The notes beneath the pieces were generated by a model that was not told the DNA's origin, ran no database searches, and saw only the letters and a program-made list of their open reading frames with translations. DNA of 33,730 bases from a virus, in the IMG/VR virus record IMGVR_UViG_3300028840_001564, positions 1 through 33,730 of that record. One strand, given 5' to 3'. Shown here in pieces: positions 9,272 to 15,033 of the stretch (positions within the stretch are counted from its first letter, which is position 1; every line of letters starts with the position of its first letter). A program made the translations under genes and the position numbers.

Positions 9272-9547
9272 CTAATCACCCTTCCCGGTGCTGAGTGCTG
9301 CCTCCAGCATTGCCATATATCTATCTTCTGTTGAGTAACCCTGCTCAAGCGCAACGATCATCGCCGCTGTCGGCTCAATGGGTACAAGAGCATAGCCTTC
9401 CGGCGTCACAGTACCGGGAGCGGCGCTAGACCTGGCCGCCTCCCACTCGTAAATCCGGTGCTTTAGTTCGAACACAGAGGCCCAATCCACCGAAAGACCT
9501 TGGCTCGCGATCCACGCTAGAATCAAATCCTCTACATCATCATTCAT
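9272..9547 (-). CDS. Hypothetical protein with ALSTGKGD tail
   Basis: This is a 91-residue acidic protein. Its second half, Pro-Thr-Ala-Ala-Met-Ile-Val-Ala-Leu-Glu-Gln-Gly then Tyr-Met-Ala-Met-Leu-Glu-Ala-Ala-Leu-Ser-Thr-Gly, follows a pattern common in phage accessory proteins: a Pro-Thr-Xaa-Ala-Met helix and a second amphipathic Ala-Met-Leu helix. The same layout occurs at the end of the gene at 10697-10951, suggesting a shared domain. Its start overlaps the upstream stop by 4 bases. No function is known. Confidence 0.7.
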   Translation of the reverse strand: MNDDVEDLILAWIASQGLSVDWASVFELKHRIYEWEAARSSAAPGTVTPEGYALVPIEPTAAMIVALEQGYSTEDRYMAMLEAALSTGKGD

Positions 9548-9936
9548 CCATCAACCTCCCCGGTGCTGAGTGCTGCGGAAACATCCATAACAACAGGTTC
9601 TCCACGTATAGCCTTGCGAATATCATCAAAATTGGCGAACTGCACCACAATGGCACGGGGTATTTCGGCTATATCGTCCTCGTCAATGCCAGCAAACACG
9701 GCATCTCCCATAACAAGCGGCGCGCACTTCACCAGCCCACCCGTCACCTCCTGCGAGGCGCGGAGCCTTTCCACTTCGGCTTCCAGTTCGGCTATGCGGT
9801 CTGCGGCTGCGTGGCAATACTGCCCAACTGGTACAATGTGGTACCCGCCATCTTCTGTCCTATAGCTAGTTGCACCCTCAATGTCTACCCCTCGCAGGAG
9901 GTCCACCAATGGTGTTTCACTTGCACTATCTTCCAT
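9544..9936 (-). CDS. Coiled-coil hypothetical protein with ALSTGEVDG tail
   Basis: The ATG at 9936 shares one base with the upstream stop (TGATG) and follows GGGGAGG at ideal spacing, so it is preferred over the GTG at 9939; the product is 130 residues. A short coiled coil (Ala-Asp-Arg-Ile-Ala-Glu-Leu-Glu-Ala-Glu-Val-Glu-Arg-Leu) lies near residues 45-58. A mixed domain follows, with Phe-Ala-Asn-Phe-Asp-Asp-Ile-Arg-Lys-Ala-Ile. Such modules occur in many variable early phage proteins of unknown role. The C-terminal tag comes from the seam repeat. Confidence 0.7.
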   Translation of the reverse strand: MEDSASETPLVDLLRGVDIEGATSYRTEDGGYHIVPVGQYCHAAADRIAELEAEVERLRASQEVTGGLVKCAPLVMGDAVFAGIDEDDIAEIPRAIVVQFANFDDIRKAIRGEPVVMDVSAALSTGEVDG

Positions 9937-10292
9937 CACTCACCCTCCCCGGTGCCGCTTTCACCAATGCTAATTTTTGATTCAGGGACTACATCCCTGA
10001 ACAATGCGGGGCCGTTTGCTTGAATACGCATCCTTTCTTCCCCATCCGTTCTAAAGACTATATCCCGACCCTTGGCGGGCATACTCCAAACAGCAATGTG
10101 AACGCTCTCGCCGTAGCGGTTCTTGACCGTTTTCATCTTTGTTTGAATGGGCCAGCCCCCAGCACGCAATTCTGAAATCCTGGCGGGCAGCTCAAGAATG
10201 CCAAGCTTGTCCCAACCCTGAAGCCGGGTGATGCTTTTACCTGACTTCAAATGCTTCAGCAGGCGCTCTTTCTGTGTCGGTACTTTCTTCAT
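9936..10292 (-). CDS. Helix-turn-helix domain protein
   Basis: The ATG at 10292 overlaps the previous stop as ATGA and gives 118 residues. The first 65 residues match the phage HTH_39-type winged-helix pattern: Thr-Gln-Lys-Glu-Arg-Leu-Leu-Lys-His-Leu-Lys-Ser-Gly, then Ser-Ile-Thr and Leu-Pro-Ala-Arg-Ile-Ser-Glu-Leu-Arg. In this family the Ala-Arg-Ile-Ser-Glu-Leu-Arg helix is the likely recognition helix. The remainder is a low-complexity extension ending Gly-Thr-Gly-Glu-Gly-Glu, a degenerate form of the seam tail. It may bind DNA and regulate early genes, but no target is visible. Confidence 0.7.
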   Translation of the reverse strand: MKKVPTQKERLLKHLKSGKSITRLQGWDKLGILELPARISELRAGGWPIQTKMKTVKNRYGESVHIAVWSMPAKGRDIVFRTDGEERMRIQANGPALFRDVVPESKISIGESGTGEGE

Positions 10293-10507
10293 CCTCGGCA
10301 GTCCTCGCATTTCTTCTGCAGTCCATGGGTAAACTGAAACACCTTGGTGCAACTGGCGCAGTTCTTGTGTGTGCCCCGGTTAACAGCGTTTTTGCCAGCC
10401 TGCTTGCAGCGATTACTGCAGAAACGGCCACGCGCTGTGCCCTGGTACTTGATGCCACACCACTTGCAGGTGTGGGTGTGGGTTTTCTTGTATGGCCCTC
10501 GGCTCAT
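10289..10507 (-). CDS. Small double zinc-ribbon-like protein
   Basis: This 72-residue, very basic protein has Cys-Lys-Trp-Cys near residue 14, Cys-Ser-Asn-Arg-Cys near 30, Cys-Ala-Ser-Cys near 50 and Cys-Glu-Asp-Cys near the end: four Cys pairs that could hold two zinc ions. The Arg-Phe-Cys-Ser-Asn-Arg-Cys-Lys pattern is typical of small bacterial and phage zinc ribbons. It overlaps genes on both sides by 4 bases. A nucleic-acid-binding role is likely from the fold and charge; the partner is unknown. Confidence 0.75.
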   Translation of the reverse strand: MSRGPYKKTHTHTCKWCGIKYQGTARGRFCSNRCKQAGKNAVNRGTHKNCASCTKVFQFTHGLQKKCEDCRG

Positions 10508-10707
10508 AGTTCCCTCAACATGATCTCAAGTTCAATTCTGGCAAGCCCGTTGCGCTTTGCTGCCAAGTCTCTCAGGTCTGCCCGAATGATCTGCAATTCC
10601 TCTTGCAACTCATCGCGCATATACAAAATGGCTTCATCAGTGGCGCGGTCAAATGCGCCTTTGTGGAAGTCTCGCAGGCGCACAGCCTTCAGGTTGCTAG
10701 TGGTCAT
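10504..10707 (-). CDS. Small coiled-coil protein, 67 aa
   Basis: The 67 residues are almost entirely helical and charged (Asp-Glu-Leu-Gln-Glu-Glu-Leu-Gln-Ile-Ile-Arg-Ala-Asp-Leu), consistent with a coiled coil. The N-terminus is basic (Leu-Lys-Ala-Val-Arg-Leu-Arg). It overlaps the upstream gene by 11 bases, with its ribosome site inside a seam copy, and the downstream gene by 4. No family is recognised; it probably oligomerises or acts as an adaptor. Confidence 0.65.
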   Translation of the reverse strand: MTTSNLKAVRLRDFHKGAFDRATDEAILYMRDELQEELQIIRADLRDLAAKRNGLARIELEIMLREL

Positions 10708-10951
10708 CCCTTGCCCTCCCGGTGTTGAGTGCTGCGCTGCACATGGCTTTGTATACAGCTTTCACGATGGCTTCAAAATCTTCTGAGCACCAATCATCTG
10801 CACTAACAGAATTGATGCCCGCGTTAAGCATTTCATTCGTGATCTGCACATCCGTCACATCCTGAGAGGCGCGAACATGTTTGAACGCACACCGCTCAGA
10901 CTCCCGACCTTCACAGATGCCAACCTTGCAATCGCAGTATATGTCGCTCAT
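10697..10951 (-). CDS. Hypothetical protein with seam-derived ALNTG tail
   Basis: This 84-residue protein has a Cys-rich N-terminus (Tyr-Cys-Asp-Cys-Lys-Val-Gly-Ile-Cys) and a C-terminal helical pair of the phage type Ile-Thr-Asn-Glu-Met-Leu-Asn-Ala-Gly, then Ile-Val-Lys-Ala-Val-Tyr-Lys-Ala-Met-Cys-Ser-Ala-Ala-Leu. The second half resembles that of the gene at 9272-9547 in layout. The seam copy here has drifted, so the tail ends Asn-Thr-Gly-Arg-Ala-Arg-Asp-Asp-His. Its start overlaps the previous stop by 4 bases. No function is known. Confidence 0.7.
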   Translation of the reverse strand: MSDIYCDCKVGICEGRESERCAFKHVRASQDVTDVQITNEMLNAGINSVSADDWCSEDFEAIVKAVYKAMCSAALNTGRARDDH

Positions 10952-11282: not shown

Positions 11283-11530
11283 TCGCAAGCCTCCTGTAAT
11301 GCTTCTGCCAGTCCGCTGTAGCCCTTCTGGTCCCATACCCGGTCAATCATCGGCACAGCCTCACAAGTCACCTTGTCGATGTGCCAGTGTGCGGGTATGT
11401 CTTCCTCAAGCTTGGGGCCGCCAGGTCCATCGGTGGATCCGTGTTCTGCGGGCATCCACGTTGCCTCAATCCTGACCTCGACCTCTCCAAGCAGGCCAAG
11501 GTTTATATATGTCTCTGTAATGGTTCTCAC
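11279..11530 (-). CDS. Hypothetical protein, 83 aa
   Basis: This 83-residue acidic protein has an N-terminal beta segment ([15 protein letters not shown]) and a later Ala-His-Trp-His-Ile-Asp-Lys-Val. It looks like a small beta sheet with a C-terminal helix. It overlaps the pentapeptide-repeat gene and the next gene by 4 bases each. I do not recognise the family. Confidence 0.7.
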
Positions 11531-12051
11531 TGCATACGCTCCAGCTTCTTTTCAAGCCATTCAATAGCGTACAGGTACATATCTCCCTGCTCCCTGTCGC
11601 CCCCATAATTTTCGCCCCAGTGCTTTTTAGCTTCACTTATTGTGAAGTACCTGCACCCGACTCGCACCCGCCAACCAGCTTCACACTCTATAGCGTGAGC
11701 AAAAGAGTAGCCGCGCATATCCTGAACAGGTAGGAGAATGATGCCGATAGCATCCCGAAGATCGGTATCCCGAAGATCGGCACACCGAAGATCGACACCC
11801 CGAAGATTGGCACCCTGAAGATTGGCATACCAAAGATTGGCATCCCGAAGATCGGTATCCCGAAGATCGGCACCCCGAAGATCGACACCCCGAAGATCGG
11901 CACCCCGAAGATTGGCATCCTGAAGATTGGCATACCAAAGATTGGCATCCCGAAGATCGGCACACCGAAAATTGGCACGAACGCCGCAACCCTCGTTGCT
12001 TACCCACTTTTCATGCTCTGCCAAGATTCTGTTAATTTTCTCTTGTTCCAT
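11527..12051 (-). CDS. Pentapeptide-repeat protein
   Basis: This 174-residue protein has about fifteen consecutive pentapeptides of the form Ala-(Asp/Asn)-Leu-Xaa-Xaa from about residue 26 to 101, flanked by a 25-residue helical start and a 70-residue non-repeat end with [12 protein letters not shown]. The repeats should form a right-handed four-sided helix; some such proteins (Qnr, MfpA) mimic DNA and bind gyrase. It is the first gene behind the strong promoter at 12079-12107, with GAGGA ahead of the ATG, so it is probably made early. A host-takeover or topoisomerase-binding role is possible but unproven. Confidence 0.9.
11750..11975. repeat. Tandem 15-base repeats inside pentapeptide gene
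   Basis: Imperfect units of the form CCCGAAGATCGGCAC repeat in tandem about fifteen times and encode the pentapeptides three codons out of phase. A longer block pattern including CATACCAAAGATTGG is itself duplicated about 120 bases apart, pointing to recent internal duplication. There are no spacers, so it is not a CRISPR array. Confidence 0.9.
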
Positions 12052-12078
12052 TTCAAAATCCTCGGTTGGTTTAGATGC

Positions 12079-12107
12079 AATATAGGGGATGGGTAATTGC
12101 GTGTCAA
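12079..12107 (-). promoter_or_regulatory. Strong promoter of the leftward early operon
   Basis: Read leftward, TTGACA (12107-12102) and TATATT (12084-12079) are separated by exactly 17 bases. Transcription would start near 12072 and reach the pentapeptide gene after about 20 bases. This is one of the closest matches to consensus in the window, consistent with immediate-early expression. Confidence 0.8.
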
Positions 12108-12124
12108 ACTATTTTTGAGATAAA

Positions 12125-12161
12125 AAAAGCCCCGGTGAATGACTAGGGGGCCGGGGCTTTT
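12125..12161. terminator. Bidirectional Rho-independent-type terminator
   Basis: A stem AAAGCCCCGG/CCGGGGCTTT with a 15-base loop is followed by TTTTCT on the plus strand and by seven T on the minus strand. It lies just upstream of the leftward promoter and so would insulate the two divergent operons, mainly by stopping leftward readthrough from the replication side. Confidence 0.75.
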
Positions 12162-12164
12162 CTA

Positions 12165-12300
12165 CCAGCGGGGAGCTGGATTTTGGGGGACGCTTGCAGT
12201 GTGAGGGAACAAGTGTCAGTGCATGAAGCTTAATCATGCCATTGCATTATAACGCTAGTCGGTACAGAATACGCAAGTGCGCTGTGATAAGCGCAACCAA
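12165..12300 (+). promoter_or_regulatory. Upstream control region of the replication operon
   Basis: This gene-free stretch holds a dyad GCATGA-N7-TCATGC at 12221-12239, a possible -10 (TATAAC, 12248-12253) with no good -35, and short hairpins at 12165-12179 and 12279-12294. A rightward promoter must lie near here to serve the replication operon, but none close to consensus is visible. An activator-dependent or operator-covered promoter is possible. Confidence 0.35.
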
Positions 12301-12305
12301 ATGCA

Positions 12306-12402
12306 GGGAGCATAGCTCCCTTAAAAGGCGGCCCCGAGCCGTTCCAGATCAACTAGATCGACCCTGCCCGGCAATTATCACCGGGGTCGTCTTTTAAGGG
12401 AG
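12306..12402 (+). promoter_or_regulatory. Structured leader that sequesters the initiator ribosome site
   Basis: Bases 12316-12336 can pair with 12382-12402 as a 21-bp RNA helix (19 Watson-Crick pairs, two G-U). The 3' arm contains AAGGGAG, the ribosome site for the GTG start at 12409. An inner stem (GCCG 12338-12341 with CGGC 12369-12372) and a GATC-AACTA-GATC hairpin cap it. A short competing hairpin, GGGAGC-ATA-GCTCCC at 12306-12320, uses the first bases of the 5' arm. This is the layout of a translational switch. The ligand or trigger is unknown. Confidence 0.65.
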
Positions 12403-12408
12403 TTATCT

Positions 12409-13128
12409 GTGCAGTGGTTCAGGCTACACAACAAGATTCTGAATGACCCCGTTGTGCAGGGTCTTACTCATCACCAGTTCCGCGTTTACATAAATCTTTT
12501 GTGCCATGCCAGCGCACGCAATGACCGCGGCTGTGTGGGTTCAATTGATGAAACAGCCTTCGTGTTACGTGAAACAATTGAGAATGTTTCATCGTGTTTC
12601 ATTGCGTTTCAAGAGCGCGGACTTCTTGTTACATCTGAAACGGACAGTGAAACGTTTCATATTCCGCAGTGGTCAAAAAAGCAATATGAATCAGACACTT
12701 CCACTGACAGAGTAAGAAGGCACAGGGAAAAGAAGAAACGTTCCAAAACCGTTACTGTAACGGCCCCAGATACAGATACAGATACAGAACAGATACAGAA
12801 AAAGAATAGGGGGCGTTTCACCCCCCCATCAATCGACCAAGTGAGAGCGTATTGCCAGGAGCGGGGTAATCAAGTTGACCCTGAGCGCTTTGTTGATCAC
12901 TACACATCCAACGGCTGGCAGGTTGGCAAAAACAAAATGAAGGACTGGAAGGCAGCAGTCAGAACATGGGAGAAATCGACCAATGAGAACACCAGAGGAA
13001 ACACTCAACGGCCTGTCAACGCGCGGCGACTTTCGGCGGCTGAGCGAGTCCGCGCAGCGGCAGAGCGACGAAAGGCTGGAAGCGATGAATCCGGACAGAT
13101 TGTTGCCACTGTGGACAGCGATGGCTGA
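12409..13128 (+). CDS. O-like replication initiator
   Basis: This 239-residue protein starts at GTG 12409 after AAGGGAG. The first 95 residues (Trp-Phe-Arg-Leu-His-Asn-Lys-Ile-Leu-Asn-Asp-Pro, Leu-Thr-His-His-Gln-Phe-Arg-Val-Tyr-Ile-Asn-Leu) match the winged-helix start of phage replisome organisers and lambda O-like proteins. A basic, low-complexity linker (about 105-130) contains Asp-Thr repeats. The tail with Ser-Ala-Ala-Glu-Arg-Val-Arg-Ala-Ala is typical of O proteins. It would bind origin repeats, probably the hexamer array inside its own gene, and recruit the P-like loader. The next gene begins inside its 3' end. Confidence 0.8.
   Translation: MQWFRLHNKILNDPVVQGLTHHQFRVYINLLCHASARNDRGCVGSIDETAFVLRETIENVSSCFIAFQERGLLVTSETDSETFHIPQWSKKQYESDTSTDRVRRHREKKKRSKTVTVTAPDTDTDTEQIQKKNRGRFTPPSIDQVRAYCQERGNQVDPERFVDHYTSNGWQVGKNKMKDWKAAVRTWEKSTNENTRGNTQRPVNARRLSAAERVRAAAERRKAGSDESGQIVATVDSDG
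12549..12820. other. Candidate replication origin: TGAAAC iteron array
   Basis: The hexamer TGAAAC or its complement occurs nine times: 12549, 12570 (plus), 12586, 12596, 12606 (minus, exactly 10 bp apart), 12636 (plus), 12648 and 12654 (a perfect 12-base palindrome) and 12815 (minus). They fall in several reading frames, so coding does not explain them. A tandem GATACA tract and purine-rich DNA follow at about 12766-12810. Lambdoid phages place their origin inside the O gene in the same way. Confidence 0.6.
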
Positions 13129-14853: not shown

Positions 14854-15033
14854 ATGAGAAACACGTTTATCGATGACTGGATGCGCGGCACGAAAGATTG
14901 CCGTGAAGGGCGTCCGCACAAGACTGACCAGGGTCAGCACTACGATTCTGGCTATTCAGCCGAGTATCACCGGCAGCAGGCAGAAGCCTGGCAGTCAGAG
15001 CAAATCAACCAAGCGATGAGGATGGCACGATGA
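14854..15033 (+). CDS. Short hypothetical protein, 59 aa
   Basis: This 59-residue ORF starts four bases after the previous stop and overlaps the next ATG by 4 bases. It is polar and Gln/Arg-rich, with Asp-Trp-Met-Arg-Gly-Thr-Lys-Asp-Cys-Arg, Tyr-Asp-Ser-Gly-Tyr and Gln-Gln-Ala-Glu-Ala-Trp. The Gly-Tyr-Xaa-Xaa-Glu-Tyr pattern is common in short proteins of phage recombination regions. No function is known. Confidence 0.65.
   Translation: MRNTFIDDWMRGTKDCREGRPHKTDQGQHYDSGYSAEYHRQQAEAWQSEQINQAMRMAR

Follow-up and report, generated by a model that had tools for sequence, protein, structure and literature searches.

The region upstream of the replication initiator gene of an uncultured bacteriophage raises the question of whether the ribosome-binding site (RBS) of this gene is controlled by an RNA structure in its leader and, if so, what kind of control this may be. 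The window analyzed comprises the whole IMG/VR virus record IMGVR_UViG_3300028840_001564 (positions 1–33,730; 33,730 nt). It represents a tailed phage that carries genes for portal, terminase, and capsid on its minus strand. A short replication operon on the plus strand (12409 to about 17800) encodes the initiator, a P-like helicase loader, a PAPS-reductase-like protein, further genes, and SSB. The structure in question is a helix within the control region 12052–12408, which separates the divergent operons. The features considered are as follows:

12079–12107, minus strand: promoter of the divergent operon, strong and of the sigma-70 type (TTGACA-17-TATATT)
12125–12161: hairpin resembling a bidirectional terminator (AAAAGCCCCGG...CCGGGGCTTTT), located between the divergent operons
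12236 (ATG) to 12395–12397 (TAA), plus strand: candidate leader ORF of 53 codons, spanning both arms of the helix and stopping on the initiator Shine-Dalgarno (SD) sequence
12242–12270, plus strand: weak site TTGCAT-17-CAGAAT, the most promoter-like one for the initiator operon (top 0.1% of positions by consensus score only)
12295–12309 with 12406–12419, plus strand: weak, bulged outer pairing reaching past the GTG into codons 1–4
12305–12321, plus strand: rival hairpin AGGGAGC-AUA-GCUCCCU, 7 bp, −11.3 kcal/mol, expected to form first during transcription
12312–12336, plus strand: 5' arm of the 25-bp leader helix, AUAGCUCCCUUAAAAGGCGGCCCCG
12337–12381, plus strand: 45-nt loop with predicted inner stems 12338–12341/12369–12372 and 12347–12350/12356–12359
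12382–12406, plus strand: 3' arm of the helix, CGGGGUCGUCUUUUAAGGGAGUUAU, including the SD
12396–12402, plus strand: SD of the initiator gene, AAGGGAG (duplex with the anti-SD, −7.9 kcal/mol)
12409–13128, plus strand: replication initiator, GTG start (MQWFRLHNKIL...), with a DnaD-like / phage_rep_org_N N-terminal domain
12549–12820, plus strand: nine TGAAAC/GTTTCA repeats within the initiator gene

The leader helix and its surroundings

An earlier note on this DNA had taken the gene for a replication initiator, which is supported by matches to the PHROG families of DnaD-like helicase loaders and replication initiation proteins (E 1e-8 to 1e-9); a Pfam match (PF09681, E 3e-4) was slightly under the curated cut-off. 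The GTG start agrees with all aligned relatives, which begin with M-x-x-WFR.

The 21-bp stem that the note had described between 12316–12336 and 12382–12402 is present, with 19 Watson-Crick and two G-U pairs (G12328-U12390 and G12331-U12387), and it continues unbroken to 25 bp (12312–12336/12382–12406) with one more G-U pair, three in all. Free-energy folding of 12160–12420 (261 nt), which had been proposed as a check, gave an MFE of −102.9 (z = −4.4; none of 200 shuffles was as good). In the folding, the AAGGGAG at 12396–12402 was unpaired at less than 1%, in agreement with its supposed burial, and the expected inner stems of the loop (GCCG/CGGC and GAUC/GAUC) were predicted as well.

No other gap-free helix in the window, on either strand and with a span of up to 160 nt, is as long: the runner-up has 17 bp (7 of them G-U), and the longest helix in each of 20 Markov-randomized windows was 14–17 bp. 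Among 1,882 other SD-bearing gene starts from all loci collected, helices covering the SD reach a maximum of 19 bp. The opening cost of the start region, 25.0 kcal/mol, is the highest among the 43 genes of the window and exceeds the control maximum of 22.8 kcal/mol in related loci. The leader structure is thus real and unusually strong. The outer pairing alone, taken as an inverted repeat, was at chance level (shuffles 0.56). All three non-Watson-Crick pairs are G-U on the plus strand, and the plus strand folds better than the minus strand by 2.2 kcal/mol, which hints weakly that this RNA has been under selection.

Several other peculiarities were observed around the helix. The hairpin at 12125–12161 has no gene end adjoining it. 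At 12242–12276, opposed promoter-like sites overlap (TTGCAT-17-CAGAAT on the plus strand and TTGCGT-19-TATAAT on the minus strand), the latter of which would yield an RNA of about 115 nt with the hairpin 12161–12125 as its 3' end. The pentapeptide-repeat gene on the minus strand (11527–12051) contains highly repetitive DNA at 11680–12000, built of gatcggcaccccgaa units, and the small minus-strand genes at 9272–10951 resemble one another in their ends (AALSTG...) and RBS blocks (GCACCGGGGAGG), which points to duplicated cassettes.

The competing hairpin and the balance of folds

The earlier note had further proposed that a 7-bp hairpin competes with the helix, so that two mutually exclusive states form a translational switch. 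The hairpin does exist and uses positions 12315–12321 of the helix, but it leaves a core of 15 bp (12322–12336/12382–12396) unbroken. The idea of a balanced two-state switch is not supported, the buried state being ahead by 8–21 kcal/mol. Its advantage is 7.9 kcal/mol when the bare 25-bp helix is compared with the hairpin and 21 kcal/mol with the outer pairs included; forcing the hairpin costs the best fold 12.6 kcal/mol relative to the best buried fold. To pass from the hairpin to the helix by the direct path, the RNA would have to overcome a predicted barrier of about 3.8 kcal/mol. When the RNA was lengthened stepwise, the hairpin persisted to about 12399, and the SD helix replaced it from 12402. 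In these folding models, the hairpin state is transient and not one half of a balanced pair.

Because the energy bias is strong and the barrier low, the RNA, if left to itself, should close within moments of transcription, and opening would therefore need an agent. Since the stabilities are so unequal, a ligand-type riboswitch is not supported, and a riboswitch in balance was rejected on energetic grounds. The absence of a known riboswitch class, as noted earlier, holds for Rfam, where no match attained the gathering score and those below it were at chance level. It appears quite unlikely that the leader is a lineage-specific two-state device whose hairpin postpones SD burial and thereby confines translation of the initiator to new RNA. 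If true, the onset of replication would depend on ongoing transcription of the operon, and the long helix would silence old RNA.

Relatives of the initiator and the origin of the leader

A profile of the N-terminal domain of the initiator retrieved 80 loci. The closest relative (L307) is 73% identical in the N-terminus, and its DNA similarity starts at the start codon, with 72.6% identity onward. Upstream, L307 differs: a short gap follows an HTH-like gene, and the leader is unrelated, with an open RBS (opening cost 3.7 kcal/mol, the second lowest of 84). According to the earlier note, relatives that keep the initiator while losing the pairing through uncompensated mutations would contradict its reading. 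L307 does keep the initiator, but its leader is unrelated and open rather than having lost the pairing point by point, and strict refutation does not follow here.

The 83 initiator starts are slightly more closed than the controls (mean opening cost 11.2 vs. 9.7 kcal/mol, p = 0.014, near-duplicate loci included). This shift is too slight for general RBS burial by DnaD-like initiators, an idea that we rejected. An overlap of the initiator gene with the preceding one is seen in Pseudomonas phage D14H and Acinetobacter phage Silvergun. Since the nearest relative has an unrelated, open leader and the initiators are barely more closed than controls, the sequences compared indicate that the helix is not a property of the initiator family, which does not need it.

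The leader was not found by other routes either. Relatives collected by the capsid protein (55 loci, 60–80% identity) have head and tail genes in common, and their 44 records contain neither an initiator relative nor the leader; these capsid-close phages carry other early modules. Among relatives collected by the terminase, the P-like protein, and the gene at 15030, the leader is common to none. Exact and gapped helix patterns gave zero matches in all viral contigs, and a DNA search with the leader returned nothing meaningful from phages, plasmids, and E. coli genomes. As no homologous leader occurs in the collections searched, there is no covariation to read. A mobile element (MITE) was rejected as the source: the structure is present in a single copy, no target-site duplication was seen, and no other copy was found.

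The phage is strongly mosaic: its capsid has relatives with up to 80% and its portal with about 45–50% identity, but the phages that carry them contain no relative of the terminase, of the initiator module, or of most early genes. As a separate observation, a relative of the phage (L132:8388–8515) has a 19-bp helix with a loop of 64 nt over the SD of its major capsid gene; no such helix was seen in the other relatives.

Because the similarity to L307 begins at the start codon, the leader lies on a mosaic junction. This fits the view that the helix is a by-product without regulatory role, that is, an inverted repeat derived from the same RBS block at opposed starts or control regions, or from an inverted duplication where modules join. 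Read on the minus strand, the 5' arm indeed gives AAGGGAG-CT-ATG with a frame of 27 codons. Moreover, a perfect 14-bp inverted repeat made of AGGAGGTAATAATG blocks in opposite orientation is present in L312 and L314–L316, about 100 nt upstream of a gene starting near 833 (1414 in L315), and is read as two divergent starts. However, on the minus strand, 2 nt between AAGGGAG and the ATG are too few for such an SD, no minus promoter of usual strength was found in the loop, and the 25 positions without a non-pairing mismatch, beside outer sequence at chance level, argue against free decay. We regard this origin without function as unlikely.

A different element was found inside the initiator gene. 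Eight of its TGAAAC/GTTTCA sites fall within 130 nt, compared with at most three in 100 shuffles, and most of the sites are retained in L307. This cluster probably represents the iterons of the origin inside the coding sequence of the initiator. In phage lambda, the origin is located inside the initiator gene O, and the repeat cluster described here resembles this origin-in-gene layout. The leader contains no TGAAAC iteron and, given the intragenic position of the cluster, was rejected as the origin.

Possible ways of opening the helix

The candidate leader ORF offers one conceivable opener. In plasmid R1, reading of tap opens the helix for repA, and ribosomes on the leader ORF could melt the helix by similar translational coupling. 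Both the frame and the position of its stop would suit such a role, and the likeness to R1 tap-repA and IncB repY-repZ extends to an initiator RBS within a stem and a reading frame ending at the SD. Unlike those systems, the frame here looks non-coding: its codon usage is below that of 99.4% of true gene stretches and typical of off-frame stretches. It has no SD of its own (−0.2 vs. −7.9 kcal/mol for the initiator), its peptide has no relative in phages, a stop-free stretch of 53 codons has a chance of about 8%, and the ATG is excluded if the RNA starts near 12277, as predicted from the promoter-like site. The ORF was thus rejected as a real gene, leaving no translated leader ORF that ends at the SD as in tap-repA, and a promoter for an antisense RNA over the loop, compared with the R1 and IncB leaders, was not found. 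We give coupling a low probability.

In phage T4, genes e, soc, 49, and I-TevI, and in Aeh1 mobE, the RBS is sequestered by helices (PMC3014915, PMC2988022). The likeness is that in each case the SD of a phage mRNA lies inside a strong helix, and with its SD and start paired in a stable helix the leader resembles, in this respect, the RBS-sequestering leader helices of the T4 e / I-TevI type. By analogy with the same anatomy in T4 e, soc, 49, and I-TevI (PMC3014915, PMC2988022), long transcripts containing both arms would be silent, and a promoter between the arms would provide a short translatable mRNA at the proper time. However, the late promoter that the T4 and Aeh1 systems have within the 5' side of the helix was not found here: the 5' arm and the 45-nt loop (12312–12395) contain no promoter-like sequence in a scan for promoters other than phage-specific or activator-dependent ones, and the best plus-strand promoter lies upstream of both arms. 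In addition, the gene is an early-type replication gene, whereas those of the T4 and Aeh1 systems are late. A silencer of this type is rather improbable in our view.

Transcriptional control was also considered. The A-run, GC stem, and U-run (AAAAGGCGGCCCCG...CGGGGUCGUCUUUU) could act as a large-loop terminator, with the fold balance setting read-through into the operon. The layout is like that of the nearby hairpin 12125–12161, and a shorter alternative stem forms within 12358–12390 when the 5' arm is absent. Against this, the U-run is short (UCUUUU followed by AAGGG) and itself paired in the long helix, the loop measures 45 nt, and a plus-strand terminator scan, which covers short loops only, raised no flag. 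There is little chance that the leader is an attenuator.

The agent might instead be a protein, either the initiator itself or another phage protein, that binds the leader and keeps it open or closed. The buried state requires an opener, and T4 replication proteins are known to control their own translation at leader structures (PMC3014915). The autogenous operators of T4 gp43 and gp32 are similar in that replication proteins are under translational control at a leader structure, but in them the SD is not hidden by a long helix, and no protein site was identified here. The leader also carries no TGAAAC iteron and no other site visible in the sequence, and the family matches of the initiator show no RNA-binding domain. 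Such a feedback operator seems improbable.

The reading that we tentatively prefer, at a confidence still short of probable, is a lineage-specific cis-acting lock that hides the SD and is opened during transcription, by RNase III cleavage, or by a protein. A strong SD (−7.9 kcal/mol) that is less than 1% accessible speaks for it; the weak promoter, the lack of a homologous leader, and the open RBS of the closest initiator relative speak against it. Because the most promoter-like site precedes the 5' arm and the RNA start is predicted near 12277, the transcript would hold both arms, and we infer that the leader is transcribed in this form. The mRNA of the initiator operon would then fold into the 25-bp helix over the SD, and ribosomes would be unable to start the initiator on finished, naked RNA. 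On nascent RNA, brief translation may take place before the 3' arm displaces the hairpin at 12305–12321, and further initiator would be made once the helix is cut or opened.

As between RNase III and a phage protein, RNase III would be the likeliest opener, because an uninterrupted RNA duplex of 25 bp is a good substrate and relief of an occluded RBS by this enzyme is documented. RNase III requires a duplex of a certain length, and the RBS is occluded here in one of 25 uninterrupted bp, which is sufficiently long for a leader of the RNase III type. If the enzyme cut about 12 bp into the stem, counted from the loop, a new 5' end would result right before AAGGGAG. Overall, the lock would keep the dose of the initiator low and capped. 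An occluded RBS is relieved by RNase III in lambda cIII and E. coli adhE (PMC5371410 and references therein). These cases are similar in having the RBS in an RNA structure near the start, and host RNase III could act in the same manner here; they differ from the present leader in gene and sequence, and the helix described here is longer and nearly perfect, with the action of RNase III on it being putative.

Most likely, this is a kind of control already known in other phages, here placed on a new gene and in one lineage. If the lock works, a DnaD-like phage initiator would come under an additional, translational control of its dosage. The lock would also show that exchange of replication modules can bring in or remove such control, given the unrelated, open leader in the nearest relative of the gene.
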